DNA of 64,000 nt from Anaerolineae bacterium (GTDB lineage Bacteria > Chloroflexota > Anaerolineae > Aggregatilineales > Phototrophicaceae). The first letter of the stretch is position 1. Each line of letters begins with the position of its first letter. The stretch covers positions 1 through 64,000 of the forward strand of contig JAIOHM010000146.1 in assembly GCA_019912965.1 (NCBI GenBank). Reading direction: 5' to 3'. Below are positions 7,390 to 58,347 of this stretch, piece by piece. Made by a program: the position numbers and the translations under genes. The notes under the pieces are model-generated. The model was not told the origin of the DNA. It did not search any database and saw only the letters and a program-made list of their open reading frames with translations.

Positions 7390-8247
7390 TCAGCTAAACA
7401 TCAATTCCAGCGAGGCCGAATGTTCAATCAGGGCTTCTTGTTCCGCCGCGTCCATCGGCTGAAGATTTTCAACCGCTTTTAGCACCATCGGGAACAGGCG
7501 CATATCCGCCGCGCTGGGGATGCCCGCCACGCCCGGTTGCGATAGGGCAAAACGCACCCCTTCGGTAATCCGTTCCTGCTCGTCATACGGCTGATACCAT
7601 GTGCCATAATTTTTCGGCTGGTCGCCCCATGCCCCGCGTGTGATCGACTTGATAACTTGCACACCGACATCGCGCTTGAGGCACATATCCAGCAGCTTTT
7701 CCGTATCCCGGCGATATTTCGCGTCGGCAAACAGACGTGGATGAATCGGGAACATCACCGTGTCAAAGTCGAATTGTTCCAGCGCCGCCGCGTGAACCGC
7801 TGGTGCTTCCATCCCATGTCCGGTGATTCCCAGAAAGCGCGTTAGCCCTTCCGCCTTCGCCCGTTTGAGGGTTTCAATCGCGCCATTGGGACGCATCGCC
7901 TGTTCCAAATCTTCAAAGGTGCCAACCGCGTGGAGTTGATACAGATCAAACTGGCTTGTCCGCAGTTTTCGCAGCGACTCCTGAAGCTGTAACCACGACG
8001 CCTCAGCATCCCGTTCTTGCGTTTTGCAGCCGAGGAAGAATTGACTCCGCCGCGATTCCAGCCACGGGCCAACCCGTTCTTCGGCCTGACGGTATCCCGG
8101 CGCGACATCAATATGGTTAATGTTGTTCGCCAGCGCCAGATCAAGCCCCGCGTTGGCTTCCTCTTGTCCAATTTCCCAGAACGCCGCCGATCCAAAAATC
8201 ACGACGCTGGTCATATGTTCTGTTCGGCCTAACCGTCGCTGTTCCAT
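7390..8247 (-). CDS. Aldo/keto reductase family oxidoreductase
   Basis: 285 residues. The opening MEQRRLGRTEHMTSVVIFGS and the line NNINHIDVAPGYRQAEERVG carry the conserved Asp (DVAPGY) and Tyr of AKR enzymes; FFLGCKTQERDAEASW supplies the catalytic Lys in place, and LYQLHAVGTFEDLEQA fits the usual LxQLH motif. C-terminal GVRFALSQPGVAGIPSAAD is the NADPH-adenosine binding part. Such proteins reduce aldehydes or ketones; the substrate cannot be told. AAGGAG precedes the ATG. Its upstream neighbour, a WD40 protein, ends 12 bases before the start. Confidence 0.85.
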   Translation of the reverse strand: MEQRRLGRTEHMTSVVIFGSAAFWEIGQEEANAGLDLALANNINHIDVAPGYRQAEERVGPWLESRRSQFFLGCKTQERDAEASWLQLQESLRKLRTSQFDLYQLHAVGTFEDLEQAMRPNGAIETLKRAKAEGLTRFLGITGHGMEAPAVHAAALEQFDFDTVMFPIHPRLFADAKYRRDTEKLLDMCLKRDVGVQVIKSITRGAWGDQPKNYGTWYQPYDEQERITEGVRFALSQPGVAGIPSAADMRLFPMVLKAVENLQPMDAAEQEALIEHSASLELMFS

Positions 8248-8259
8248 AGCTAAACTCCT

Positions 8260-9357
8260 TTAATTGAAAGGCACACCCCACAATCGAACTGTCCCATCAT
8301 AACTCGCAGATGCGATCATCCGTTCATCGGCACTGAAATCCATACTCGCAACAAGATTTGTATGCCCAAATACAGTGCTTAATAAATCTCCGGTTTGGGG
8401 ATCGCAAAAAAGAATAGCATTTGCCATATCATTAAATACTAAGAGCGATCCACTAGGGCTGAAAAACAATACATTTGAAAAACTGATTTCATAATGATCG
8501 TGTGTTCTATAAATTATGTGCCTATGTTCCGTATTTGTCGCAATATCCCACCAAATGATGAGATGTTCTATCACCTTATCAGTATTTAGACTGTATCCGC
8601 CAATTAGCAACTCTTTATTATCAGGGCTAAAAACAAGCGATGTCGCAATATCAATCTCTGGACGAAAAGATATTCTTTCTTCCAGTCCAGCAATCGAAAA
8701 CTGACCATTTCCTAATGGGCCACCTAATATTTCGGCACGAAGTTGCCCGTCGAGACTAAATCTTACACCAGTTATAGTTAAATCTCCTGCTGGATCGGAT
8801 AGTCGATCCCCCTCTTTCAAAATATTGCCAGTATTCATATCCCAAGACATGGTGCCAAATACTGTGCCAAAAGCTACGACGAGTTGAAATCCATCTGCAC
8901 TAAAAAACATATCGCCGATGAAATCATACGGATGCTTTTCAATGTGAAGTTCAAAAGGTCGTGTTCCAGTTTCTACATCCCACACAGTTGGATTCATCCA
9001 ATGAAATCCACCACCATTTAAGACTAATAACCTACCATCAGGACTAAACTCGAGCTGCCGGATGTACTCAGCAAACTCTCCCAAATATGTTCGCCATTCT
9101 ATAGTCCAACTTTCGAGATTCCATAATATTAATTGTTCATCACTAACCACAGCTAGTTGCTTACTATCAGGACTGAAAGCAACTGCACTGAAGAATTCAC
9201 TATCCTCTGGCAGCAAAGCAATCTGGGTAATTTGTGTGACATTTTCTGGGGTGATTGCTTGGAGTTCGGGAATTGCCGAATTCGTATCCTGAGATGCTGG
9301 ATAAGTCAGAAATAAGCATAGAATGCCAACACCGACCAACTTGCTCAAGTTTATCAT
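8260..9357 (-). CDS. Secreted WD40-repeat protein
   Basis: 365 residues. An N-terminal signal segment (VGVGILCLFLTYPASQ) leads into WD40/beta-propeller repeats with recurrent FSPDSKQLAV, FSPDGRLLVL, FSADGFQLVV, FSPDNKELLI, FFSPSGSLLV and FSADERMIASASYDGTVRLW blades. That gives roughly six to seven blades, enough for one propeller. It overlaps the CysQ-type gene by ATGA (9354-9357), so it is translationally coupled although the two functions are not obviously linked. AT content is noticeably higher than in its neighbours, hinting at separate acquisition. Role unknown; propellers usually bind proteins. Confidence 0.8.
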   Translation of the reverse strand: MINLSKLVGVGILCLFLTYPASQDTNSAIPELQAITPENVTQITQIALLPEDSEFFSAVAFSPDSKQLAVVSDEQLILWNLESWTIEWRTYLGEFAEYIRQLEFSPDGRLLVLNGGGFHWMNPTVWDVETGTRPFELHIEKHPYDFIGDMFFSADGFQLVVAFGTVFGTMSWDMNTGNILKEGDRLSDPAGDLTITGVRFSLDGQLRAEILGGPLGNGQFSIAGLEERISFRPEIDIATSLVFSPDNKELLIGGYSLNTDKVIEHLIIWWDIATNTEHRHIIYRTHDHYEISFSNVLFFSPSGSLLVFNDMANAILFCDPQTGDLLSTVFGHTNLVASMDFSADERMIASASYDGTVRLWGVPFN

Positions 9358-10319
9358 CCCTCTGCCAGCACGCGACCGATGGCATCAAGAATCTGAGCGT
9401 GGATATGCCCATTGCTGACGATAATGCCCTTGTTCGGCAGCGTTCGCCCATATGAAAAATCCAGCGCCGAACCGTCCAAATCCGTCACCATGCCGCCTGC
9501 TGCCTGCACTAGTGCCGCCCCGGCTGCATGATCCCAAATCATGAATGGGCGGGTGCTGTTCAAACGGGGTAACCGCAGATACAGTTCTGCATCCCCGGCA
9601 GCAATCCGCGCATATTTTTCCATGCTGTCGATGTGCTGCAAGGATGACCCGCCCAATCCGGCCACCTCCCGCACCCGTTCCATACGCTCGTGGTTCGCAT
9701 GGCTTTTTTCGACGCTTTCCAATGCCCGAATAGTCGATGCCGTATTATTTTCTGAAACGCGAATGCGCTTGACCGCCCCACCGTCCAATGGCTGACGGAA
9801 AGCCGCGCCGCCCTGTGCATGAAACAACAGACCACCACCGGGATAGGCGGGTGAGCCAATCACCCCACCTGCGGGCTTTTTGTCGATCAACAACCCCGCG
9901 GCGATGACATAATTCCGCAGCGCCAGAAAACCTTTTGTGCCATCAATCGGGTCGATCACCCATGTGCGTTTACTTTCCTGTTTATGCCCATGATCGAGCC
10001 AGCGCACCACATCGACCTGCGTTACCGGAATTTCCAGAATCATATTGAGCAAACGCACCACTTCAGCCCGTTCGGCATCCGGCACCAGTTCCATAAACTG
10101 ACCGCCGTTTTCTTCGGCAATCACCGCATCATCGGGGAACGAGATGCTGATCGCCCGCCCCAGAATCGCCTGTGAACCATAATCCGCAATCGTGACCGGT
10201 TCATGGCCGCCCTTCTCACTGCTCACCAGATGATGCTCCTGCACAATCTGGCACAAACGCGCGGCCTGCCGCACAGCCTGAAAAATCGGTTGGAAGTCAA
10301 TCGGGTTATTTAGCGCCAT
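9354..10319 (-). CDS. cysQ: 3'(2'),5'-bisphosphate nucleotidase (CysQ/inositol monophosphatase family)
   Basis: 321 residues. Metal-binding motifs of the inositol-monophosphatase superfamily are present: AVIAEENGG near residue 68, WVIDPIDGTKGFLAL near 125 (DPxDGT), and IWDHAAGAALVQAAGG near 268 (WDxAAG). The long acidic insertion before DPIDGT and the GTKGF sequence match the 3'-phosphoadenosine-5'-phosphate phosphatase branch rather than inositol phosphatase. It would recycle PAP from sulfate assimilation or lipoate/CoA transfer. It overlaps the preceding methyltransferase gene by 10 bases and the WD40 gene by four. Confidence 0.83.
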   Translation of the reverse strand: MALNNPIDFQPIFQAVRQAARLCQIVQEHHLVSSEKGGHEPVTIADYGSQAILGRAISISFPDDAVIAEENGGQFMELVPDAERAEVVRLLNMILEIPVTQVDVVRWLDHGHKQESKRTWVIDPIDGTKGFLALRNYVIAAGLLIDKKPAGGVIGSPAYPGGGLLFHAQGGAAFRQPLDGGAVKRIRVSENNTASTIRALESVEKSHANHERMERVREVAGLGGSSLQHIDSMEKYARIAAGDAELYLRLPRLNSTRPFMIWDHAAGAALVQAAGGMVTDLDGSALDFSYGRTLPNKGIIVSNGHIHAQILDAIGRVLAEG

Positions 10320-11014
10320 CGAAGCAGTTTCGCCCCTTTTTCCGTGTCAAAAATGTCGACCAGCTCAACCGGGAATTCCTTAAGCCATGCCTCCACCATC
10401 CACTGCTCATCTTCACGGTCAGCGTCGTCAATCAGAATGAGGGCGCGGTTGGCGAGGCGTTCGTGAAGGATGGGCAGCGCCGGATAACGCACGCGCCGCC
10501 GGGGATTATCCCACTGAGTCGGGCCGTCGATAATCAATAAATCAATCGCATCCATGTGCGATGCCATGCTTACATCATACCACTCAAAAGCCTCTCCATG
10601 CAGTTCAAATGTCTTCAATGGAGTGTGTATCACTTCGGCAACATTTTCCAGCTTATGCCGCGCCACGTTCGCCCGCGTTTTGCCGGAAAATATTTCGGTG
10701 TGGTCAATCGAAATCAGCTTGCCGCTGCCCTGTTTTTCCAGGCAATAACCACCAATCAACGTGGAGACTCCGCCACCAACTTCAAAGATATGCTGCGGCT
10801 GATAGGTTTCGATTACATCCACGATGATGTTGGCGAAATCCGGCGAAATCGCAAAGCCGCGCATCGACGGCAGCGGAGCGCGCAGTCTTAGCCGATTTTG
10901 GAGCGTCAAAAGCGCCTCGACCTGCTTGTAGACCATCCGCTGTTCCCGTTCTAACGATTGCTGTTGCTGTTGAATAGCTTTCAGGAGTTCAAAGATTTCG
11001 GTGAGGTTTGTCAT
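10310..11014 (-). CDS. Class I SAM-dependent methyltransferase
   Basis: 234 residues from ATG 11014. A glutamine-rich N-terminal helix (LLKAIQQQQQSLEREQRM) precedes a Rossmann domain with HIFEVGGGVSTLIGGYCLE (motif I), KLISIDHTEIF (motif II) and LLIIDGPTQW (motif IV). That pattern resembles class I (FkbM/caffeoyl-type) small-molecule methyltransferases, substrate unknown. A GTG 33 bases further upstream is possible, but ATG 11014 has GAGA upstream. First gene of the run methyltransferase-cysQ-WD40, with overlapping ends. Confidence 0.72.
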   Translation of the reverse strand: MTNLTEIFELLKAIQQQQQSLEREQRMVYKQVEALLTLQNRLRLRAPLPSMRGFAISPDFANIIVDVIETYQPQHIFEVGGGVSTLIGGYCLEKQGSGKLISIDHTEIFSGKTRANVARHKLENVAEVIHTPLKTFELHGEAFEWYDVSMASHMDAIDLLIIDGPTQWDNPRRRVRYPALPILHERLANRALILIDDADREDEQWMVEAWLKEFPVELVDIFDTEKGAKLLRWR

Positions 11015-11059
11015 GCTGGTTCTCGATATTTCCCAAAACTGTATCACAAATCAGCGCGG

Positions 11060-11683
11060 CTAACCTACCAGCCGTTCGCACACCTCACCAAGCAGCGCGG
11101 TCATAAACCCTTCCGCCGGACACGCCAACGATGGATCATAAACCGCGTAGGTTGTATCCGGTGTATGGATCAACAAACCCATACGCCCATAAGCATGAGC
11201 CACAACCTGAATCCGCCAATCGGGTGGATAAATATACACCTCGGAAAATAACCGAATCGTGCTGTTCAGCCAATCCCGGTAAACCGTCGGGAAATCGGGC
11301 AGTTCTGCTTTCGACGCCCGCGCCCGCAGCAGCGCATAAACCCACGCCTGACACACATCGCTGAAGCCCGCCACCGCGAACCCGATTTCCGCCTCGCGCA
11401 AGCCGACCTGCGGGTTAATCGTCATAAGCTGATTTTCAAATATGCGCGTCAAGTCATCCACTGTACTCAAAAGATTTTGCATCGAGATACGCTCAGGAAT
11501 CGCCCCAAGCACCCCTGACCGTACCGCGTTGAGTTCAGCCCCTGCCCGGTCAATCCGCCCTAATCCGGCGTAATCCTTCGGCTGAAACTGCGCGATGCCG
11601 AATTCCGGTGGCAGATGATGCGCTGCGCGGAAATCTTTAATCGGACTAAATGTGTAAAGGATTCCATCAAGACTGAATATCAT
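11060..11683 (-). CDS. Protein of unknown function
   Basis: 207-residue, mainly helical, soluble protein with no signal peptide, membrane segment or motif I recognise. The C-terminal part (VVAHAYGRMGLLIHTPDTTY) has the alternation of a small beta domain. It is divergent from the ECF41 sigma factor: its start lies 16 bases left of the ECF41 -35 element, so binding of that sigma could also affect this gene. No clear ribosome site. Confidence 0.55.
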   Translation of the reverse strand: MIFSLDGILYTFSPIKDFRAAHHLPPEFGIAQFQPKDYAGLGRIDRAGAELNAVRSGVLGAIPERISMQNLLSTVDDLTRIFENQLMTINPQVGLREAEIGFAVAGFSDVCQAWVYALLRARASKAELPDFPTVYRDWLNSTIRLFSEVYIYPPDWRIQVVAHAYGRMGLLIHTPDTTYAVYDPSLACPAEGFMTALLGEVCERLVG

Positions 11684-11698
11684 GGAATTAAACTTTCA

Positions 11699-11725
11699 TG
11701 TCACAAATCGCAGATCACACTTGTC
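11699..11725 (+). promoter_or_regulatory. Autoregulatory ECF41-type promoter
   Basis: TGTCACA (11699-11705), 16-base spacer, TGTC (11722-11725). The published ECF41 promoter, as I recall it, is TGTCACA-N16-CGTC, so this matches in all but one base and in exact spacing. Transcription would start near 11733, 26 bases before the sigma-factor ATG. Confidence 0.75.
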
Positions 11726-11758
11726 TTATTTTACAGACAAGCAAATGAGGATTGGCAT

Positions 11759-12619
11759 ATGGCCGATTTTGAAACCTATCGCCCGCTGTTGTTCTCCATC
11801 GCCTACCGGATGTTGGGCAGCGCGATGGATGCCGAAGACATTGTGCAGGAAACCTTTATCCGGTATCAGGAAGCCAACCCGGAACAGGTCGAGCATCCCA
11901 AAGCATTCCTCTCGACCATCGTCACGCGCCTGTGCCTGAATCAACTGCAATCGGCACGGGTGCAGCGGGAACAGTATATCGGCCCGTGGCTTCCCGAACC
12001 GGTCATCACAGGCGGCGATGGCGCATCCTTATTCAGCCCTGCCAGCGAACTCGGCAAGCTCGATACCATTTCGATGGCTTTTCTGGTGCTGCTGGAAAGC
12101 CTGTCCCCGGCGGAACGAGCCGTATTTTTACTGCGCGAAGTGTTCGATTACGACTACGCCGAAATCGCGCGGATTCTGGATAAAGACGAAGCCGCCTGCC
12201 GTCAGTTATTCAGCCGCGCCAAAAAGCACGTGACCGAAAATCGCCCGCGCTTCAAAGCCACACCGGAAGAACATAACCAGTTACTCGGTCAATTCCTGCT
12301 GGCCTGCAATGTGGGCGATGTTGAAGGGCTGACCAAACTGCTGGCTGAGAATGTCACCTCATGGTCAGACGGGGGTGGCAAGGCGCAGGCTGCGACCCGC
12401 CCGATTCATGGCGCGGATAGTGTTGCCCGCTTCTTTATCGGCCTGACCAAAAAGATGCCCGCCGATGCAGGCGTTGAACTGGCCGACATCAACGGCAAAT
12501 TGGGCGTCCTCGTTCGCTTGAGCGGCAAACCATTTGTGGTCATCACGCTGGAAGTTGGCGACGGAATCATCCGCGAATTCCGCGTGGTCGCCAATCCCGA
12601 AAAACTCGCCCGACTGTAG
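11759..12619 (+). CDS. ECF41-group sigma factor with fused C-terminal regulatory domain
   Basis: 286 residues from ATG 11759 (GAGG 8 bases upstream). Sigma region 2 (about 3-75) holds AYRMLGSAMDAEDIVQETF, region 4 (about 105-160) holds LVLLESLSPAERAVFLLREV and YAEIARILDKDEAACRQLFS. A SnoaL-like C-terminal domain (about 175-286) follows. Three group hallmarks are visible: WLPEPV in the linker, DGGGK near residue 205 and NPEKL at the end. In this group the C-terminal domain replaces an anti-sigma factor and controls activity. The stop codon TAG lies inside a dispersed palindrome (12616-12641). The next gene is the typical oxidoreductase/epimerase partner. Confidence 0.9.
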   Translation: MADFETYRPLLFSIAYRMLGSAMDAEDIVQETFIRYQEANPEQVEHPKAFLSTIVTRLCLNQLQSARVQREQYIGPWLPEPVITGGDGASLFSPASELGKLDTISMAFLVLLESLSPAERAVFLLREVFDYDYAEIARILDKDEAACRQLFSRAKKHVTENRPRFKATPEEHNQLLGQFLLACNVGDVEGLTKLLAENVTSWSDGGGKAQAATRPIHGADSVARFFIGLTKKMPADAGVELADINGKLGVLVRLSGKPFVVITLEVGDGIIREFRVVANPEKLARL

Positions 12620-21278: not shown

Positions 21279-21935
21279 TTAAAGCGCGGCAATCGTGCGG
21301 AGCAAATCTTCGCGGGTGATGATGATGCGGTGACGGTCAAACCGGATGGCCTCGGCCTCTTCCAGCGTTCGCAGTGCGCGGCTCACCGTTTCCGGCTTGG
21401 TTGCCAGATGTGCCGCAATCGTCGCGCGGGTGACGCCGCTCAACGCCGGATCATCCATCTGCTTGAGCAAAAACCGCGCCAGCCGGATCGTAACCGAATA
21501 CAGCGCCAGGTCTTCAATCTGCCCGACCAGATTCCGTACCCGTGCCGCCAGCATTTTGATGACCCGTCGCGCCAATAACGGATCGCTGGTCACAAGGCGC
21601 GCCAGAGCTTCCGAAGGCAGCAGCCAGGCCGTAACATGGGTGAGCGCTCCCGCGTTCGCCGGATTATTACCCCCGTCCAGCGCTGCGATGTCATTGAACG
21701 TGTTCCCCGGCCCCAGCAAATGCATGATGTGTTCTTCGCCTTCCGGGTTGATCTTATAGACCTTAACCCGACCCTGCTCCACCATCCACATGCCAGCCGC
21801 CGGGTCACCTTCCAGAAAGATAATTTCATCTGGGGCAAAGGTGCGCCGCTGCATCTCGTCTTGGAGTGCCGTCAGCCGCGATGCATCCAACCCCTCGAAA
21901 TACGGCAGCGCCCGCAGATATTCAATCAACGGCAT
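21279..21935 (-). CDS. Crp/Fnr-family transcriptional regulator
   Basis: 218 residues. The cyclic-nucleotide-binding fold spans about 5-120 (EIIFLEGDPAAGMWMVEQGR, GEEHIMHLLGPGNTFNDIAA) and the Crp-type winged helix about 150-218 (VTRATIAAHLATKPETVSRA). No cysteines suited to an Fnr iron-sulfur cluster are seen, and the ligand is unknown. ATG 21935 is preferred: GGGTG lies in the end of the upstream gene, which stops four bases before. Cotranscribed with a DUF423 gene. Confidence 0.85.
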   Translation of the reverse strand: MPLIEYLRALPYFEGLDASRLTALQDEMQRRTFAPDEIIFLEGDPAAGMWMVEQGRVKVYKINPEGEEHIMHLLGPGNTFNDIAALDGGNNPANAGALTHVTAWLLPSEALARLVTSDPLLARRVIKMLAARVRNLVGQIEDLALYSVTIRLARFLLKQMDDPALSGVTRATIAAHLATKPETVSRALRTLEEAEAIRFDRHRIIITREDLLRTIAAL

Positions 21936-49953: not shown

Positions 49954-51075
49954 TTAGCCACCGAGGCTGATTTTTACCTCGTCCCAAGCGTCGCTGTACA
50001 GGAATTCAAAGTCCAGATTCGGCGCAATCGAGAACAGATTGGTCATGCTCTCCGCCGGAGGATAAATCGCCGGGCTGGTGAGCAGGACTTCGTCGATCAG
50101 ACCGCCATCAATCGCCGCCTGATTGGGGGAAGCAAAAGCGGTGTAGTTGCTGATGCTGGCGCCGACATTCGGGTCAAGGATGTAGTCGATGAAGGCATGT
50201 GCCAGTTCGATGTCTTCTGCGCCAACCGGAATGGTCAGGTTGTCGATCCAGATGTTGGCGCCTTCTTCGGGCAGCACATACTGAATGTCTTTCTCGCAGG
50301 CCGAGTCTTCTTCACACTGGCTGATGACCTGGAACACATCACCCATGAACTCAACTGTAATATCGACATCGCCGCGAATCAGTTGTTCCTGACCATCGTC
50401 ACCCGCAATCGAAACCACGTTCGCGCCTTTTTCGATCAGGTAATTTTTGGCTTCTTCGATCTGGGCTTCGTCAGTGGAGTTCGGGTCATAGCCCAGCATA
50501 ATCAGCGCGACGCCCATCATGGGACGCTTGTCTTCCAGCCATGCGACCGGGCCAGCATAATCCCACACATCGTTCCATGAAACGATGTCCTTGCCAACCT
50601 TGTTCCGGTCATAGCCAATGCCAATGGTGCCCCACTGATAGGGAATCGAGTATTGATTGCCCGGATCAAAAGACCGGTCGATCAATTCTGGAGAGAGATT
50701 GGCAAAGTTTGGAATCAGGCTCAAATCCAGCGGTTCGATCAAGCCTTCCAGCACCATGAGTTCGATACTCTGATCGGGCGGGACGACAATATCATAACCG
50801 GGATTGCCCTGCCGCAGACGCGAGAGCAGTTCGTCACCGCTGCCGTAGATGTCATAAGTGATTTCCACACCGCAGGCGGCCTGGAAGTTAGAAATCGTAT
50901 CCGGCGCAACGTAGGTTGACCAGTTATAGATATTGAGGGTCTTGCCTGCGAAGCCTTCCGGGCACGTCCATTCAAACTCGGTTGGAACGAAACCGGGTTC
51001 CGGGGTGACATCCTGTGCCAGTGCAGTGGTACACAATGCCAGCATGAGCATCCCCAACAATACAATCTTACGCAT
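49954..51075 (-). CDS. potD: PotD-type polyamine-binding protein, first copy
   Basis: 373 residues. Signal IVLLGMLMLALCTTALAQD; there is a Cys in the signal but not in a normal lipobox. CPEGFAGKTLNIYNWSTYVA, GNPGYDIVVPPDQSIELMVL, YSIPYQWGTIGIGYDRNKVG, ISNYTAFASPNQAAID. AAGGAG precedes the ATG. It follows potC by 57 bases. This copy is the closest to the common PotD in the QWGTIG motif. Confidence 0.87.
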   Translation of the reverse strand: MRKIVLLGMLMLALCTTALAQDVTPEPGFVPTEFEWTCPEGFAGKTLNIYNWSTYVAPDTISNFQAACGVEITYDIYGSGDELLSRLRQGNPGYDIVVPPDQSIELMVLEGLIEPLDLSLIPNFANLSPELIDRSFDPGNQYSIPYQWGTIGIGYDRNKVGKDIVSWNDVWDYAGPVAWLEDKRPMMGVALIMLGYDPNSTDEAQIEEAKNYLIEKGANVVSIAGDDGQEQLIRGDVDITVEFMGDVFQVISQCEEDSACEKDIQYVLPEEGANIWIDNLTIPVGAEDIELAHAFIDYILDPNVGASISNYTAFASPNQAAIDGGLIDEVLLTSPAIYPPAESMTNLFSIAPNLDFEFLYSDAWDEVKISLGG

Positions 51076-51132
51076 TTCAACTCCTTATATTTGAATAGGT
51101 CTACAAACGACTGTTACAGATGCGTGTAACCC

Positions 51133-52062
51133 TTAACGCTGCGATGCGCTCCGCCCCTGCATCACCAGCGAGACACCAACGAGGGCGGTGGAAGCAAACA
51201 GCATCAGGGTCGAGATCGCGTTGATTTCCGGCGGCACACGGGTTTTTAACAATCCGTAAACAAAGATAGGCAGGGTGGTTGTGCCAATGCCGGAGACAAA
51301 AAATGTAACGATGAAATCGTCCAGTGAAATCGTAAAAGCCAGCAAACCGCCGGCGATGACACCGGGCAAAATCAGCGGGAAGGTTACGCGCCAGAAGGTG
51401 CGCCATTCGTTCGCGCCCAAATCCCGCGCGGCTTCTTCAAAACGCGGATTCATATCGGCAAAGCGGGCGCGTACCACAATGGCTACATAAGAGATGCAGA
51501 AAGCCACATGACCGATGATGATCGTGCCGAAACCGGGTGCGGCGCGCAGACCATCATTCAGCGAATTGGCGTAATCAAACAGGATGCGGAAGAACACCGC
51601 CAGCGAAATGGCCTGTGTAATTTCGGGGATGACGATGGGCAGGTACAGCAGGGCATCCAGCACGGCTTTGCCGGGAAAGCGTCCCCGAACCAGACTCATG
51701 GCGACCAGTGTCCCGATCACAGTTGAAATCATGGTGGTCACTGCGCCCACCAGCAGACTATTTTTGACCGAATTCAACATCAATTCGGTCGAGAAACGGG
51801 CGCTTTCCGTGCCAGCACTAATGGCATTGGCGAAGATGTTTTCATACCACTGGGTGGTAAAACCGCGCCATACCGATACGGTTTCGGCGTTGTTGAACGA
51901 GAATACAATCAGGATGACGATTGGCACCCACAGGAAGAAGTAGGCAAAAACAGGGTCAGCAATCATCAGGATTTTACCCGCGCGACGGATGAGCATGTCG
52001 CGGCGGATTTTGGAACGGTCGAATTCGATTTCGCCAGCTTGTACAACCGCCTGATTGGTCAT
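51133..52062 (-). CDS. potC: Polyamine ABC transporter permease PotC
   Basis: 309 residues. Six helices, of which the first follows a cytoplasmic N-terminus of about 35 residues longer than in E. coli PotC. The EAA loop EEAARDLGANEWRTFWRVTF PLIL is present. Start overlaps the potB stop by one base (TGATG). FNNAETVSVWRGFTTQWYEN is the first outer loop, typical of PotC. Confidence 0.9.
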   Translation of the reverse strand: MTNQAVVQAGEIEFDRSKIRRDMLIRRAGKILMIADPVFAYFFLWVPIVILIVFSFNNAETVSVWRGFTTQWYENIFANAISAGTESARFSTELMLNSVKNSLLVGAVTTMISTVIGTLVAMSLVRGRFPGKAVLDALLYLPIVIPEITQAISLAVFFRILFDYANSLNDGLRAAPGFGTIIIGHVAFCISYVAIVVRARFADMNPRFEEAARDLGANEWRTFWRVTFPLILPGVIAGGLLAFTISLDDFIVTFFVSGIGTTTLPIFVYGLLKTRVPPEINAISTLMLFASTALVGVSLVMQGRSASQR

Positions 52063-52931
52063 CAGAGCAATCCTCCCTGGCGGTCGCCAAAGCGGACGTA
52101 GACCAGCAGCGCGATCATAACCATCGCCATCATGACGACTGACAGCGCCGAACCGAGGGGTTGGTTACCCTGTCCCTTGAACTGCTGGTTAATCAGGTTG
52201 CCGATCATGATGCCCTGCGTTCCACCGAGCAAATCGGGTGTGACGAACGCGCCAATCGTCGGGATAAACACCAGAATAAATCCGGCGATGACCCCCGGCA
52301 GCGTCATCGGGAACACAATTTTCCAGAAGGCCGACCAATCATTTGCGCCCAAATCGTGGGCGGCTTCCACAAAGCGGAAGTCAAATCGCTCGACCGATGA
52401 GTAGATGGGCAGCACCATGAACGGCAGGTAGCCATACACCAGACCGACCAGCACCGCGCCGGGTGTGTTCAGGATTTGCAGCGGTTCAGAGATAAGGCCT
52501 AACGTCTGCATGAGGGAATTAAATGTGCCTTCGCGCCCCATAATGGTCTGGAGGGCATAGGTACGCACCAGAAAATTCGTCCAGAATGGCAGAATAATCA
52601 GGAACAAGGCCAGCGACCGCACCCAGGCCTTCTTGCGGGTGCTGATGAAAAACGCCAGCGGATAGCCAACCAGCAGGCAGATCACCGTCGTCTGAAAGGC
52701 AATCCACACCGAGTCGGTCAGCACGCCGCTGAATACATCAAAGACGCGCTCGTAATTCGCCAGCGTAAAAGGCATGATGCCTTGTCCGCCGCGTCCGCGC
52801 GTCAGAAAGCTGACGACGAGGACAATCAATACAGGTAACAGGAAAAAAAGACCCAACCAGATAATGGCGGGCAGGGCGAGTAAGAAACCTTTAGATTTTT
52901 CTCTCGTCCGAAGCTGGGCATTTTCTGCCAT
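52062..52931 (-). CDS. potB: Polyamine ABC transporter permease PotB
   Basis: 289 residues from ATG 52931 (GGAGG upstream). Six helices; FFLLPVLIVLVVSFLTRGRG starts the family line, and the EAA loop VEAAHDLGANDWSAFWKIVF is intact. TNFLVRTYALQTIMGREGTF matches PotB. First gene of the operon potB-potC-three potD-potA, on the minus strand. The intergenic region up to the divergent aldolase at 53148 must hold its promoter. Confidence 0.9.
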   Translation of the reverse strand: MAENAQLRTREKSKGFLLALPAIIWLGLFFLLPVLIVLVVSFLTRGRGGQGIMPFTLANYERVFDVFSGVLTDSVWIAFQTTVICLLVGYPLAFFISTRKKAWVRSLALFLIILPFWTNFLVRTYALQTIMGREGTFNSLMQTLGLISEPLQILNTPGAVLVGLVYGYLPFMVLPIYSSVERFDFRFVEAAHDLGANDWSAFWKIVFPMTLPGVIAGFILVFIPTIGAFVTPDLLGGTQGIMIGNLINQQFKGQGNQPLGSALSVVMMAMVMIALLVYVRFGDRQGGLL

Positions 52932-53147
52932 CCGAAGCCTCCCCGAACGACCCCAATTGCGACACAGCGCAAATAATAAATCGGGATACCCGTTTGGGCA
53001 AATACAATAATTAAACGAATTTTCCACGATGGGATGGGGTGATTATGACCAAATATTTCAAGGGATGCAAGTGCAGAAATCAATCTCAATCGTGGTATGA
53101 TTGAAGGCATGTGTATCAGGTTATTTGGATTTGAAAGGACTAATCTC

Positions 53148-54251
53148 ATGGTGATTGCCGCACCTCCTGAAAAAACACTCAGTATTGACCGGATTGCTGA
53201 ACTGCTGGGGAGCGATGCAGACAACCTGCTGAACCATACCAGCCAAACGATTAGCAAAGACGTGCTGTACCTACCGGGTTCAGATTTCGTCAACCGCGTC
53301 TGGACGAATTCTGATCGTTCGCCGCAGGTGCTTCGCAGTTTGCAGCAGATGTTCGATCATGGCCGTCTGGGCGGAACGGGCTATCTCTCAATCCTGCCAG
53401 TCGATCAAGGGATTGAACATTCGGCGGGCGCTTCGTTCGCCAAAAACCCGGCCTATTTTGACCCGGATAATATCGTCAAACTGGCAATTGAAGGCGGCTG
53501 TAACGCGGTCGCTTCCACATTCGGCGTGCTGGGCGCAGTCGCCCGCAAATATGCCCACCGGATTCCGTTCATGGTCAAGATCAACCATAACGAACTGCTG
53601 ACCTTCCCCAACAAATTCGATCAGATTATGTTCGGGACGATCAAAGAAGCCTGGAACATGGGCGCAGTTTCGGTCGGTGCGACGGTTTATTTCGGCTCTG
53701 ACGAAAGCACCCGTCAACTGGTGAGCGTGGCAGAAGCCTTCGCCTATGCTCATGAACTGGGGATGGCGACGGTGCTGTGGTGCTACACCCGCAATCCGGG
53801 CTTCAAGGTCAACGGCACAAATCACGAAACCTCAGCCGATCTGACCGGACAGGCTAACCATCTCGGCGTGACGATTCAGGCCGATATTGTGAAGCAAAAA
53901 CTGCCGACTCAAAATGGCGGTTTCAAGGCGCTGAACACGGGCGGTTCGTCCTATGGCAAGCTGGACGAACGCATTTACACCAAGCTCACCAGCGATCATC
54001 CAATTGATCTGACACGCTATCAGGTTGCCAATGGTTACATGGGGCGGGCGGGGTTGATTAACTCCGGCGGCGCTTCGGGTGGCGAAAGCGATCTGGCAGA
54101 GGCCGTGACCACCGCCGTCATTAACAAACGCGCGGGCGGCATGGGTCTGATCAGCGGGCGCAAGGCGTTCCAACGTCCGATGGGCGAAGGCGCGGCGCTG
54201 CTGCGGGCGATTCAGGATGTGTATCTGTGCGATGATGTGACGATTGCGTAA
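53148..54251 (+). CDS. fbaB: Class I fructose-bisphosphate aldolase (DhnA type)
   Basis: 367 residues from ATG 53148 (GAAAGGA upstream). [20 protein letters not shown] (the Asp), [37 protein letters not shown] (Lys region), [31 protein letters not shown] and the C-terminal phosphate site [19 protein letters not shown] fit archaeal/E. coli FbaB-type aldolases. Cuts fructose-1,6-bisphosphate through a lysine Schiff base. A strong terminator follows. Confidence 0.9.
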
Positions 54252-54265
54252 GCAGATTTTCAAAC

Positions 54266-54298
54266 CGGGGCAGGCAAACACACCTGCCCCGATTGTTT
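54266..54298 (+). terminator. Terminator after fbaB
   Basis: CGGGGCAGG (54266-54274) pairs CCTGCCCCG (54283-54291), then ATTGTTTAA. Confidence 0.72.
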
Positions 54299-55127
54299 AA
54301 TCGTCATCGTCGCTGTTGCCGCGTCCGTTCCCTTGTCCTTGACCGGGATTATTGCCACCGGGATTGTTGCTATTTCCCCCACCCTGCTCACAGCGGCGGC
54401 GCCAGCCGTTGGCAGGTGCCCAATCGGGCGGCGGGTTGCTGCATGAGCCGTCATCAGTCCAAACTTCACCGGTATTCGGGTTCACATCCACATCAATATT
54501 GACCACAATCACCGTGATAGCGATGATAACGTTGGTGCTATCGCCCGGTATCCCCTCAACATGCAGCACATCATCAATCTGAATGACGCCCAGAATCGGG
54601 TCGGTGGGGTTGATGATGATTTCGATGCCATAGATGACGATCACATTATCGCGGATTTCATCAACTGGGCCTTCGATGATGATGATCGAATCGAGCGTCG
54701 GTTCGAGGGTCGTTTCTGGCGTGATTTCCGGAGTCGGTTCGGTGGTTGCCTCGGCTGTTAAGGTGGCCGTCGGCTCAAGTGTTGCCGTTAGCGATGGAAC
54801 GATTTCGGGTGTTACTTCGACAGTGGCGATTTCAGCAGGCAGCGTCGCACTGGGTGCTGTAGTCAGAACCGGAGTGGGCGTCGTCGATTTTTGCTGTCCA
54901 ACGCCGCCGATCACAACGATGCCTATGACCACGATCACCACGACCAATGCACCGACAATGGCGGGAAGGCTTACAAGCGGTGTAGGGGCAGGCATGGGTG
55001 GCAGATTCATCGCGTTCAGCATTTGAGCGCGAATAGCCTCGAAGGCATCCGGGCGGAGTTCTGGCTGTGGCGCGTTTTGCAGCCGCGCAATCAGGTTTTG
55101 TTCTTCCGGGGTAAGTTGTTCAGCCAT
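54297..55127 (-). CDS. Anti-sigma factor-like protein with secreted WAPANGWRRRCE module
   Basis: 276 residues. A short cytoplasmic part (about 1-46: LTPEEQNLIARLQNAPQPEL; FEAIRAQMLNAM) where an anti-sigma domain is expected, one membrane helix (about 54-76: IVGALVVVIVVIGIVVIGGV), a Thr/Pro/Glu-rich stalk (80-145), then an outer beta domain (about 146-225: IIIIEGPVDEIRDNVIVIYG; IDDVLHVEGIPGD) and DWAPANGWRRRCEQGGG with a Gly/Asn/Asp tail. The outer module is repeated in the secreted protein at 55908. It starts one base after the ECF sigma gene, the usual sigma/anti-sigma order. Confidence 0.72.
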   Translation of the reverse strand: MAEQLTPEEQNLIARLQNAPQPELRPDAFEAIRAQMLNAMNLPPMPAPTPLVSLPAIVGALVVVIVVIGIVVIGGVGQQKSTTPTPVLTTAPSATLPAEIATVEVTPEIVPSLTATLEPTATLTAEATTEPTPEITPETTLEPTLDSIIIIEGPVDEIRDNVIVIYGIEIIINPTDPILGVIQIDDVLHVEGIPGDSTNVIIAITVIVVNIDVDVNPNTGEVWTDDGSCSNPPPDWAPANGWRRRCEQGGGNSNNPGGNNPGQGQGNGRGNSDDDD

Positions 55128-55128
55128 G

Positions 55129-55704
55129 TTAGTCTTCCCCGCGTAGATAGCTGCGCGCTTTGCCGCGTTCGCCCAATGCTTCCGCCAGCGCCTTCAACGC
55201 CCGGTGCTGCATGACGCGGATCGAACCCTCTGATTTGTTCAGCACTTTGGCAACTTCATCATGCGGAAGCTGCTGCATAAAACGCAAGATCAACAGGGTT
55301 TGGTAATCCTCGGATAAGGTTGCCAATGCCTGCCGCAGCCGTTCCCGTTCTTCGGCTTTCGCGGTTTTGCCGAATGGATCGGTGTCATCGCTGGGATGGG
55401 AATCTGAAATCGGTTCGGCAGATGCGCGACGTTTGCTGCGGTAATGGTCTGCAATCTGGGTGGCAGCGATGCGGAACAACCATGCGCCGAAGGGGATACC
55501 CGAATCGGTATAAGACGGTAAACCCTGCACCATCCGCAGAAAAACTTCCGCCGTCAGGTCTTCCGCCAGCATATCCGACTCAACGCGATAACTTACATAG
55601 CGAAAGACTGCCTGTGCGTAACCTTCATAAAGCGCGCTCACGGCGTCTCGGTCTCCGGCCTTCGCGCTGGCAATAAGTTCACGTTCATTTGGTAAGGGTT
55701 GCAT
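55129..55704 (-). CDS. ECF-type RNA polymerase sigma factor
   Basis: 191 residues. Region 2 (about 10-85): ALYEGYAQAVFRYVSYRVES, AEDLTAEVFLRMVQGLP and GAWLFRIAATQIADHYRSK. Region 4 (about 125-180): LATLSEDYQTLLILRFMQQL and VAKVLNKSEGSIRVMQHRAL. No C-terminal extension. AGGGG precedes the ATG. Its gene is followed by the membrane anti-sigma-like gene, and it is divergent from the gene for a secreted protein with the same outer module. Confidence 0.9.
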   Translation of the reverse strand: MQPLPNERELIASAKAGDRDAVSALYEGYAQAVFRYVSYRVESDMLAEDLTAEVFLRMVQGLPSYTDSGIPFGAWLFRIAATQIADHYRSKRRASAEPISDSHPSDDTDPFGKTAKAEERERLRQALATLSEDYQTLLILRFMQQLPHDEVAKVLNKSEGSIRVMQHRALKALAEALGERGKARSYLRGED

Positions 55705-55797
55705 CCCCTGATTATGCCCTTTATCCCCGTTTCATGCACCATAAGACTGCCTGTTTTAATCTGTTCTTCACCTCCTAAAACGCGCTCATAACTGAAA

Positions 55798-55856
55798 TGT
55801 TACAAAAGACAATGTTCATATTTCTTGACACAATGTTCATTGCCGGACTTGTAACA
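55798..55856. promoter_or_regulatory. Regulatory region with direct and inverted repeats
   Basis: Two exact copies of CAATGTTCAT (55810-55819 and 55831-55840) are 21 bases apart, two helical turns, with TTGACA (55825-55830) between. TGTTACAA (55798-55805) and TTGTAACA (55849-55856) form an outer inverted repeat. The block sits in the intergenic region between the ECF gene and the secreted protein gene. Confidence 0.5.
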
Positions 55857-55907
55857 TCTCCAAAGGATGTGTCGTTATAGGGGGTGACAAGTATAGGAGG
55901 CGATTTT

Positions 55908-56936
55908 ATGTATAAGCGATTACGTTTTGGTTTATCGTCCGCACTCATTCTAACGATGCTGCTGATGGCAGTGGTTATGGTTGGGAATACGGTTGCCGAC
56001 GATGATGACAACTGTCCAGTGGGTCAGGGTTATTGGAAGAACACCGCCCAATGGCCGGTCGTCGAAATCATTATCGGCGGCCAGGTTTATACCCAAGTCG
56101 AACTGCTCAATATCCTCAATACCCCATCCGAAGGCGATGCCAGCCTCATTCTGGCAAGGCAGATCATCGCTGCCAAACTGAATATCGCCAACGGGCAAGA
56201 CCCGACGATTGTTCAGGGGGTCATTGACCAGGCCGACACGCTGCTGGCAACCTACGCCAGCGCGGGCAAACTACCCTACAACATCCCGCCGTCATCAACA
56301 GATGGGCAGACATTGGTGAACGTGGCGACTGTTGCGGATGCCTATAACAATGGTTCGCTAACGCTCAACTGTGCCACCCCAACCCCGGAGGCCACCAGTG
56401 AAGCGACGCCGGAACTGACTCCGACGCCGGAAGCGACACTGGAAGTCACACCTGAAGTTACGCCAGAGGCTACCCCGGAATCCACACCTAATCCCGATGA
56501 TGATGACGACGGTGACATTATCATCGTGATTGAAGGCCCGGTGGAGGCCATCAACATCAACATCATTGTCATTTATGGCATCGAGATTGAAATCAATATT
56601 GATAATCCTGTGCTGACGATTATCCAGATTGGCGACATTGTGCGTGTCGAGGGTGCTGTTAGCGACGACGATGGTGATGACGACGATGACGACAATGGTG
56701 GAAACAAAATCGTCATCATTGCGATAACGATTATTATCATTAATGTGGACATCAACATCGACACGGGCGAAGCGTGGCGTGACAGCGGGGATTGCAGCAA
56801 TCCGCCGCCGCCCTGGGCACCGGCTAACGGCTGGCGTCGCCGCTGCGAACAAGGTGGCGGTGGCAACCCCGGTGGTGGCAATCCCGGCGGTGGCAACGGT
56901 CGCGGTAATGACGATGATGACGATGACGACGATTAG
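55908..56936 (+). CDS. Secreted protein sharing the outer module of the anti-sigma factor
   Basis: 342 residues from ATG 55908 (TAGGAGG upstream). Signal SALILTMLLMAVVMVGNTVA; N-terminal domain (about 30-155: CPVGQGYWKNTAQWPVVEII; LLNILNTPSEGDASLILARQ) of a kind seen in secreted choice-of-anchor proteins; Thr/Pro/Glu linker (160-200); beta module (about 205-295: IIIVIEGPVEAININIIVIYG with an acidic insertion) and PWAPANGWRRRCEQGGG, a Gly-rich stretch and an Asp tail. The beta module and WRRRCE motif align with those of the anti-sigma-like protein. Could be its ligand, rival or target. Confidence 0.75.
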   Translation: MYKRLRFGLSSALILTMLLMAVVMVGNTVADDDDNCPVGQGYWKNTAQWPVVEIIIGGQVYTQVELLNILNTPSEGDASLILARQIIAAKLNIANGQDPTIVQGVIDQADTLLATYASAGKLPYNIPPSSTDGQTLVNVATVADAYNNGSLTLNCATPTPEATSEATPELTPTPEATLEVTPEVTPEATPESTPNPDDDDDGDIIIVIEGPVEAININIIVIYGIEIEINIDNPVLTIIQIGDIVRVEGAVSDDDGDDDDDDNGGNKIVIIAITIIIINVDINIDTGEAWRDSGDCSNPPPPWAPANGWRRRCEQGGGGNPGGGNPGGGNGRGNDDDDDDDD

Positions 56937-56951
56937 GTAGTCCATTTAATC

Positions 56952-56985
56952 GGGGGCGGGAAACATCCTGCCCCTGCATTTTATT
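56952..56985 (+). terminator. Terminator after the secreted-protein gene
   Basis: GGGGGCGGG pairs CCTGCCCC around AAACAT, then TGCATTTTATT. Confidence 0.6.
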
Positions 56986-56988
56986 GTG

Positions 56989-58347
56989 ATGAACATGACA
57001 CACCATTTTAAGAGATTGTTTGCCCCGGTTGACATCGCCGGGCTGGTGTATTTCCGGCTGTTATTCGGCGCGATTATGCTGTGGGAAGTCTGGCGTTTTC
57101 TCGGTCAGGGGCGGATCGAGGACTACTATCTGCGTCCGGTTTTCCAGTTTAAATATTATGGCTTCGAGTGGGTGCAAACGCCACCGGGAATCGGGTTGTA
57201 CATCCATTTCATCGTGCTGGGCGTGGCAGCAATCTGCATCATCCTCGGTCTGTGGTATCGCCTGAGCGCGGCGGTATTTTTCGTCGGCTTTAGCTATGTT
57301 TATCTGCTCGACCAGACCTACTATCTGAATCACCATTATCTGGTGTGCCTCATCAGCTTTTTGATGATTTTCATCCCGGCGCACCGTGCTTTTTCGCTGG
57401 ATGCGTGGCGCAAACCGTCGCTGCGGACGGATAGCATTCCGGCGTGGTCGCTGTGGCTGCTGCGCGGGCAGATCGGTCTGGTGTATTTTTTCGCAGGTAT
57501 CGCCAAACTGAACGGCGACTGGCTGGCGGGGCAGCCGATGAGTATGTGGCTGGCTGATCGAACCGATTTCCCGGTCATCGGCCATCTGTTCACTGAAAGC
57601 TGGATGGTTTTGGCTTTTTCTTACGGCGGACTGCTGTTCGATCTTTCGGCGTTTCCGCTGCTGCTGTGGCGGCGAACCCGCTGGATGGGGCTGGGCATTG
57701 GCCTTGCCTTTCACCTGACCAATTATCAACTCTTCAACATTGGCATTTTCCCGTGGTTCATGCTGGCGGCGAACCTGCTGTTCCTCGACTCCGATTGGCC
57801 GCGCCGTATTTTGCACATTGTGAGACTTCCGCCAGAGGCTAAAACTGAACAGGGTAATTCTCCTGTTGGACTCAGTGAACATCGGCAAAGCATGATTATG
57901 GCGGCGTTGGGTATCTATTTCGCGGTTCAGATTTTTCTGCCGCTGCGCCACTTTTTGTATCCGGGGGATGTGAACTGGACGGAACAGGGACACCGTTTTT
58001 CGTGGCATATGAAACTGCGCGATAAAGAATCCAGCGTCCGTTTTTTCATCACTGATCCGGTGACAGGGACAAGTTGGGAGGCCGAACCGGAACGCTATCT
58101 GACGGAACGGCAGCTTGATGAGATGAGCAGCCGCCCGGATATGATTTTGCAATTCGCCCATTATCTGGCTGCGCTGATGCTGGAGGATGATTATGAACGG
58201 GTGGAAGTTCGCACACTGGCGGTGGCCTCGCTGAACGGACGCAAGCCACAACTGCTGATTGATCCGCAGGTTGATCTGGCTGCCCAACCGCGTTTACTGG
58301 GAATCTCCGATTGGATTATGCCGCTGATTGAACCGCTTGTCCGCTAA
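56989..58347 (+). CDS. HTTM-domain membrane protein (vitamin K-dependent carboxylase-like)
   Basis: 452 residues. About eight helices. RLFAPVDIAGLVYFRLLFGA is the family opening, YYLNHHYLVCLISFLMIFIP and AHRAFSLDAW the conserved loops, QIGLVYFFAGIAKLNGDWLA the HTTM signature (YF-AGxAKlN-DWL), followed by FSYGGLLFDLSAFPLLLWRR. The C-terminal 120 residues are soluble (WTEQGHRFSWHMKLRDKESS). Members of the clan include gamma-glutamyl carboxylase, but most bacterial ones are of unknown action. Follows a terminator, so it is a separate transcript. Confidence 0.87.
   Translation: MNMTHHFKRLFAPVDIAGLVYFRLLFGAIMLWEVWRFLGQGRIEDYYLRPVFQFKYYGFEWVQTPPGIGLYIHFIVLGVAAICIILGLWYRLSAAVFFVGFSYVYLLDQTYYLNHHYLVCLISFLMIFIPAHRAFSLDAWRKPSLRTDSIPAWSLWLLRGQIGLVYFFAGIAKLNGDWLAGQPMSMWLADRTDFPVIGHLFTESWMVLAFSYGGLLFDLSAFPLLLWRRTRWMGLGIGLAFHLTNYQLFNIGIFPWFMLAANLLFLDSDWPRRILHIVRLPPEAKTEQGNSPVGLSEHRQSMIMAALGIYFAVQIFLPLRHFLYPGDVNWTEQGHRFSWHMKLRDKESSVRFFITDPVTGTSWEAEPERYLTERQLDEMSSRPDMILQFAHYLAALMLEDDYERVEVRTLAVASLNGRKPQLLIDPQVDLAAQPRLLGISDWIMPLIEPLVR

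Follow-up and report, generated by a model that had tools for sequence, protein, structure and literature searches.

Two described systems come closest to the one reported here. In Streptomyces the sigma factor BldN, for which a promoter motif CGTAACN16CGTTGA has been published (PMC2375139), activates the chaplin and rodlin genes of Streptomyces venezuelae (PMC4255298), and RsbN defined the class III anti-sigma factors (PMC8103513). In Clostridium thermocellum the outer domains of the RsgI anti-sigma factors are CBM3, PA14 or GH10, GH10 xylanase genes are under the control of sigma-I6, the sigI genes are autoregulated and SigI is without region 4 (PMC4711584). We analyzed a 64,000-nucleotide stretch of DNA from an Anaerolineae bacterium (assembly GCA_019912965.1, contig JAIOHM010000146.1, positions 1 to 64,000; "the window"), in which the genes for an extracytoplasmic function (ECF) sigma factor and its membrane anti-sigma factor stand divergent to, and on the opposite strand from, the gene for a secreted protein. 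The outer domain of the anti-sigma factor is nearly that of the facing secreted product, and the cell may in this way monitor the coat on its own surface. We know of no described signal for RsbN-type anti-sigma factors, and an anti-sigma outer part that closely resembles a predicted regulon product makes the sensing question directly testable with two purified modules. No description of such units was found among the listed matches of a search of the PMC literature, which most subscription journals lie outside.

The window unit resembles BldN/RsbN in its sigma sequence, in the N-terminal segment of its anti-sigma factor, in its promoter motif, in having the membrane anti-sigma factor encoded next door and in its predicted regulon of secreted proteins. 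It differs in that the host belongs to the Chloroflexota rather than the Actinomycetota, that the outer part of the anti-sigma factor mirrors a predicted regulon product, and that those products are GYWK/DUF5666-like, HPVA-type and PASTA proteins (below), not chaplins. It is like SigI/RsgI in autoregulation and in having an anti-sigma outer domain of a kind also present in the regulon's secreted proteins; however, the window sigma factor has region 4 (Sigma70_r4_2, Table 1), and carbohydrate modules there correspond to a DUF5666-like barrel and cysteine tail here. By analogy, then, the unit would work like RsgI, but it does not belong to SigI/RsgI.

The outer module shared by the two proteins

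The original prediction, made from the letters alone, placed a membrane anti-sigma factor beside an ECF sigma factor with a secreted protein on the opposite strand, and gave the two non-sigma proteins a common architecture. The arrangement and its coordinates were confirmed, and the peptide strings quoted for the stalk, module, cysteine tail and Gly/Asp end were all found in the translations; in both proteins the order is a Thr/Pro/Glu stalk, the beta module, CSNPPPxWAPANGWRRRCEQ and a Gly/Asn/Asp tail. The modules are 67% identical over about 105 residues (2-105 of the 105-amino-acid query, E 8.9e-32), a similarity that extends beyond the low-complexity tails, and whole-protein BLASTP gives 47% over 166 amino acids (E 2e-24), which takes in part of the stalk. 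With these two alignments, an origin of the likeness in chance or in low-complexity sequence can be rejected. The strand segments of both modules are very Ile/Val-rich and near-identical, and the tails are alike. In the 7.76-Mb genome from which the window comes, a search at E<=1 found close copies of the module only in these two divergent neighbors. A third candidate on contig C182 (E 0.53; G, C and L numbers are our handles for genomes, contigs and loci) lies within a histidine-kinase-like open reading frame (ORF), in its frame, and was taken as chance. More distant DUF5666 domains give three matches in two ORFs at C155 of the same genome.

We read the module as a divergent DUF5666-like barrel followed by a two-cysteine tail. 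No Pfam domain family was matched by the module of the window anti-sigma factor or of the window secreted protein, but DUF5666 was matched at E<=0.1 by 11 of 18 related anti-sigma factors and 9 of 18 related secreted proteins, and DUF5667 by six of those anti-sigma factors, the longer ones; the cysteine tail is extra to these families. Among six relatives examined for DUF5666, L078 (33.6 bits) and L037 (29.4) exceed the cut-off of 27, three score lower and one has no match. In 43 aligned modules eight columns are invariant, both tail cysteines among them; the cysteine tail also ends some proteins that have no barrel (L086, L087). In the structure model of the anti-sigma factor the barrel at residues 151-210 has block predicted local distance difference test (pLDDT) values of 90-97 within a whole model of predicted template modeling score 0.34, and the module of the secreted protein is less confidently modeled (block pLDDT 49-81). 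The best Foldseek E-values for the two module models are 6.7e-3 and 4.6e-2, with none at E<=0.001 and template modeling scores by target of up to about 0.6; the top matches are presumably mostly OB-fold proteins.

Sigma and anti-sigma class and the predicted regulon

The closest solved relative of the sigma factor is BldN (6dxo_A, E 1.3e-26; next match 1.9e-17), and the BldN family TIGR02952 is its best NCBIfam match at E 3.1e-44, but the score of 150.9 bits is below the family's cut-off of 206.45. When a profile of 17 anti-sigma N-termini was compared with the PDB, 6dxo_D was its sole significant match (E 7.5e-4; next 0.27). This 91-residue chain is labelled BldN in the file and is unmatched by the sigma query; from its length, that lack of a match and the known content of the entry, we take it to be RsbN. 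The window anti-sigma N-terminus is shorter than in 12 of the 17 aligned anti-sigma factors and its NCBIfam anti-sigma match is weak (0.011); helices are predicted at residues 7-17 and 26-40, and a single predicted helix at residues 54-75 is consistent with one membrane span. The match of the sigma factor to BldN, that of the N-terminus to the partner chain, and the promoter motif described next together make it likely that this is a BldN/RsbN-type unit that drives secreted proteins, in which the anti-sigma factor is predicted to bind and inhibit the sigma factor. According to one survey, 72% of Chloroflexi ECF sigma factors adjoin class I anti-sigma factors (PMC7406223), so a class III-like pair would not be the commonest arrangement there.

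Upstream of both divergent genes lies TGTAACAT-N14/15-CGTT; these facing sites, like the gamma-carboxylase homologue described below, had no part in the original prediction. Set against the published BldN motif, its counterparts are TGTAAC-N16-CGTT (sigma gene) and TGTAAC-N17-CGTT (secreted gene); the core is shared, and the first base and last two bases differ. We drew the pattern GTAACAT-N14/15-CGTT from the window alone and searched both strands of 785,395 bp, consisting of the window and 60 fetched regions (59 from relatives and one own-genome control). It occurs at 13 sites, with none for the swapped and none for the reversed control, and 12 of the 13 precede sigma operons or genes for secreted-looking proteins. 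Outside the window this holds for 10 of 10: by reading, four sites lie upstream of sigma operons (one of them in an ORF extended too far) and the other six upstream of genes whose proteins have a signal-like N-terminus. Two of the three window sites are those of the facing pair; the other, at 21631, is within an opposite-strand ORF and was taken as chance. The whole 7.76-Mb genome has five such sites, including the facing pair, versus two for the backwards pattern, and in 17 congeneric genomes the TGTAACAT form has 24 sites versus 11 backwards, 15 of the 24 being, by reading, upstream of a sigma gene or a gene for a secreted protein (in a few cases the ORF is cut or extended too far). TGTAAC-N16/17-CGTT by itself is not specific (19 sites versus 46 backwards), and the extended TGTAACAT element is needed.

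Outside the genus the element drifts to YGYRACAT-N14-CGGTNT. A broadened pattern has 36 sites at spacing 14 and 3, 1, 1, 0 and 0 at spacings 12, 13, 15, 16 and 17, with 0 when reversed. By script, 25 of the 36 precede a sigma or module gene; the other 11, by reading, stand upstream of secreted genes of the PASTA (four) and HPVA-domain (five) families, of a further sigma operon (an over-extended ORF in L057) and of a membrane-protein gene. A position weight matrix gave p 2.7e-13 for 57 genes outside the genus and p 9.9e-5 for 10 genes within it, values that are partly circular, since training sites came from some of the genes under test. The broadened pattern was shaped on the same upstream regions as that test, and the cleaner evidence comes from the pattern drawn from the window alone and from the controls for spacing and reversal. 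With these, the transcription of the facing secreted gene by the sigma factor, which the original prediction had put forward for testing, is strongly supported in silico by the promoter pattern. The motif also matches that of Streptomyces BldN, which suggests that BldN-type control of surface proteins may predate, and extend beyond, the formation of aerial hyphae.

What else might the sigma factor control in its own genome? On contig C65 a homologue of the HPVA family (74% identity) has TGTAACAT-N14-CGATTT 65 bp before its start, and on C196 a PASTA-family homologue (58%) has TGTAACAT-N14-CATTAT 73 bp before its start. The second boxes of both are looser; the sites were accepted after inspection and are absent from the relaxed-pattern list. 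Judging by this same motif with a relaxed second box, the sigma factor probably also drives these two secreted proteins. The relaxed pattern as a whole gave eight own-genome sites versus seven backwards. Of the eight, just the sigma site stands where one would expect it; most of the rest are within genes, and one is 59 bp before a short-chain dehydrogenase/reductase gene. 

The window secreted protein carries a GYWK domain (CPVGQGYWKN...WPV) of about 120 amino acids, mostly helical (block pLDDT 91-98), which is present in 13 ORFs of the window and fetched loci and has no match in Pfam or NCBIfam. A second secreted family with the same promoter (L119, L134, L137, L051 and G000:C65) is marked by an HPVAxxIAxTF...YDEVMALHC domain, and has a weakly DUF5666-like N-terminus, a stalk and a Gly/Asn tail; the C-terminal domain of the L119 protein matched no Pfam family.

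Recurrence in relatives and the meaning of the likeness

The module was found in 41 of 151 genomes (the window's own and those of the same genus, family and order). The named genome collection yielded 27 loci, of which 25 bear the title Chloroflexi, Anaerolineae, Anaerolineaceae or Aggregatilineales; in part these are the same contigs. Iterated hidden Markov models (HMMs) find it in 72 ORFs, the two window ones included. The pairing on which the original prediction turned does recur: among 38 genomes in which a module protein was classified, 23 have both kinds, 12 have the secreted kind alone and three the anti-sigma kind alone, and a sigma-HMM gene lies <=6 kb from 13 of the 44 secreted genes (12 genomes). 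In a sigma search of 19 genomes, two of those classed as secreted-only (G013, G030) do have an anti-sigma factor, whose match to the module is weaker.

A tree of 63 modules, which has few columns for its rows and in which one of the two G136 rows has an odd letter make-up, does not split into anti-sigma and secreted modules; its starred branches require four or more label changes. The anti-sigma and secreted modules of the same genome are sisters in G136 (100/100), where tandem modules match at 58% over 154 amino acids, and in G134 (99/99), where the two genes lie on different contigs and share two domains and an end piece (76% over 218 amino acids). An extra domain (DWDCSSVEVEGTC...) is common to the G134 anti-sigma factor and secreted protein (L079, L081) and is seen by eye also in L117, whose promoter motif is the same. 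The module of the window anti-sigma factor is more similar to the facing one than to any other of the 40 secreted modules; on the tree, however, the two window modules group with other species' anti-sigma and secreted copies, respectively, so their likeness is older. Overall, own-genome pairs are more alike than permuted ones (0.47 versus 0.42, 0/5000), a difference that is confounded by kinship, and by eye the composition of the tail is mirrored between anti-sigma factor and secreted protein in several genomes.

A second sigma unit is present in the window's own genome (L209, G000:C155:150000-169000, at 7695-12316). Its anti-sigma gene follows the sigma gene and encodes DUF5667, DUF5666, a stalk, LysM and an Asn/Asp tail, and a secreted protein encoded 1.7 kb upstream has two DUF5666 domains, LysM and a similar tail; the LysM parts are 46% alike (E 2.8e-16). 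The sigma factor is differently classed and no BldN-type site was seen in the 19 kb, so mirroring of the outer domain is not confined to the BldN-type unit.

The explanation of the whole that we favor, and think fairly probable, is a BldN/RsbN-type unit with a sigma regulon and an outer module that samples the surface layer. The ECF sigma factor would be held at the membrane by the anti-sigma factor through its short helical RsbN-like N-terminus, and once released would transcribe its own operon and the facing gene for a secreted surface protein. The stalked outer module may sample whatever wall or matrix partner is occupied by the secreted protein; the rate at which the anti-sigma factor is inactivated would then depend on how fully the surface layer is occupied, giving homeostatic control of the layer. 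Its support in silico consists of the shared module, the shared promoter, the recurring pairing, the re-matching of modules in some genomes and the likely sigma/anti-sigma class, and regulation of the secreted gene is well supported in this way; sigma binding, the ligand, the direction of response, proteolytic release and modification by a carboxylase homologue (below) are what we infer beyond it. A bolder version strikes us as improbable: a BldN-type switch outside the Actinomycetota that monitors its own layer through a copy, on the anti-sigma factor, of the layer protein's module, with the layer protein gamma-carboxylated on its Glu-rich stalk, the coat binding calcium, and transcription responding to how complete the coat is.

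Several observations weigh against surface-layer sampling by a matched module. The weightiest are units with SH3 in place of the module: Pfam finds this replacement in the anti-sigma factors of G008 and in one of G013, SH3 is seen by eye in those of G004 and G005, and the promoters of the SH3 units look alike. The anti-sigma factors of G039 and G111 have only the cysteine tail and no barrel, the own-genome modules of G028 and G045 are less alike than average, and the secreted gene facing the unit of G014 belongs to the HPVA family and lacks the module. DUF5666 likeness between the two C155 proteins is only 26% (E 0.049), and the OB-fold call rests on weak Foldseek E-values (best 6.7e-3). As to the promoter, 9 of the 24 strict sites of the genus scan are elsewhere (one before a protein kinase gene and eight others; the backwards control was 11), the window secreted gene has a spacer of 15, not the usual 14, and is the sole broadened site at 15, and the fetched regions were chosen by the module and hence are enriched for such genes. 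The original suggestion that the module was copied by the sensor fits the sister modules of G134 and G136, but does not stand as a strict rule given the SH3 units and the barrel-less anti-sigma factors. Overall the original interpretation is upheld in part; competition between the modules, or their binding to each other, is a conjecture. The SH3 units, read together with the LysM case, suggest a wider rule, that an anti-sigma factor may wear an outer domain from the cell's own stock of surface-protein parts.

Stalks, tails, SH3, LysM and DUF5666 all look like stock parts of exported proteins, so the sharing could also be incidental: generic parts for export and wall retention, with the module a mere anchor and the sensing done by the cytoplasmic and membrane parts. 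The differing outer domains of related anti-sigma factors and the cysteine tail on the barrel-less L086 and L087 speak for this, but we find it doubtful, with only two close module copies in 7.76 Mb, both in divergent neighbors, the excess of own-genome over permuted likeness (subject to kinship) and the same-genome sister modules of two genomes on the other side. Rather unlikely, too, in our estimation is substrate sensing of the RsgI kind, in which an external ligand on the outer module switches on secreted proteins that bind the same ligand, with no competition or self-monitoring. It has a precedent in C. thermocellum (PMC4711584), and LysM in the C155 unit and SH3 in other units suggest wall-binding partners, but the aligned secreted proteins have no enzyme family above cut-off (the regulon candidate L117 has a sub-threshold match to a GH30 C-terminal domain), and the tails that are mirrored by eye in several genomes are more than a ligand-binding domain needs. 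Finally, the anti-sigma module might co-polymerize with the secreted module, and incorporation into the layer might pull on or shed the anti-sigma factor. The Ile/Val-rich, near-identical strand segments and like tails would suit such homotypic assembly, as would activation of chaplin and rodlin surface-protein genes by BldN in S. venezuelae (PMC4255298), but the anti-sigma model resembles a compact OB barrel and we regard this idea as a long shot.

Locus layout and the gamma-carboxylase homologue

Table 1. Features of the window unit and its flanks
Feature	Position	Strand	Evidence or remark
ECF sigma factor, BldN-like, 191 aa	55129..55704	-	Sigma70_r2 3.3e-15, Sigma70_r4_2 1.9e-13 (Pfam)
Membrane anti-sigma factor with outer module, 276 aa	54297..55127	-	1 base 3' of sigma gene
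RsbN-like, presumed sigma-binding region of anti-sigma factor, residues 1-45	54993..55127	-	N-terminal profile versus PDB
Anti-sigma outer module: DUF5666-like barrel and CSNPPPxWAPANGWRRRCE tail	54384..54686	-	Alignments, OB-like model
Predicted sigma-operon BldN-type promoter site, TGTAACAT-N14-CGTTTT	55777..55804	-	100 bp upstream of start codon
Predicted secreted-gene BldN-type promoter site, TGTAACAT-N15-CGTTAT	55850..55878	+	58 bp upstream of ATG 55908
Secreted protein: Sec-like signal, GYWK domain, Thr/Pro/Glu stalk, module, Gly/Asp tail	55908..56936	+	
GYWK domain of secreted protein	56010..56372	+	13 ORFs; mostly helical model
Secreted-protein module, same as in anti-sigma factor	56520..56852	+	Alignments
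Vitamin-K-dependent gamma-carboxylase homologue, possible modifying partner	56986..58347	+	HTTM 1.4e-92, VKGC_lumenal_dom 1.8e-46
Terminator-like hairpin between secreted gene and carboxylase homologue	56951..56976	+	z -3.8
Hairpin just beyond sigma-operon end	54266..54291	-	z -5.9

The likely start of the secreted protein is the ATG at 55908, which has AGGAGG ahead of it and gives 342 amino acids; the called ORF begins at GTG 55884. For the hairpin at 54266..54291 the scan gives a terminator-like pattern on the + strand, and the folding was done on the - strand. A DeoC/LacD-family aldolase and, by eye, polyamine-type ATP-binding cassette transporter genes lie near the sigma operon (window neighbors at 53097-54251 and 49954-53027), with no evident link to the unit.

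The carboxylase homologue starts 50 bp past the secreted gene on the same strand. The two genes might be co-transcribed, although a terminator-like hairpin (Table 1) stands between them. It aligns over 439 residues with the vitamin-K-dependent gamma-carboxylase chains of the PDB (E 6.8e-52) and conserves, in the matching stretch, a lysine that we take to be the catalytic one. Like those enzymes it has HTTM and lumenal domains; unlike them it is shorter, bacterial and next to a gene with an ECF-type promoter. We know of no natural substrates of bacterial gamma-carboxylase homologues, and the gene order here points to candidate ones; modification of the secreted protein by the homologue is possible on this evidence. 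Homologues are present in 14 of the 151 genomes, and the module is in 12 of these 14 versus 29 of the other 137 (Fisher 2.5e-6, uncorrected for kinship). The homologue adjoins a module gene or, by eye, a PASTA gene in seven of the 14 (G000, G014, G024, G031, G075, G126 and G134) and does not in G007, G018, G028, G052, G056, G063 and G074. The 14 carboxylase loci, none longer than about 3.4 kb, showed no BldN-type site. The genes of G031 run, nearly without gaps, in the order secreted protein, carboxylase, sigma factor and anti-sigma factor, the last being unmatched by the RsbN-like HMM.

Elsewhere the gene after the secreted one is often that of a membrane protein. Nine neighbors 3' of secreted genes were tested; four have a spermidine-synthase domain, two are carboxylase homologues and three have no match, and the carboxylase would thus be one of several partners. 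Large membrane proteins with a spermine/spermidine synthase domain directly follow the secreted gene in L055, L043, L058 and L037.

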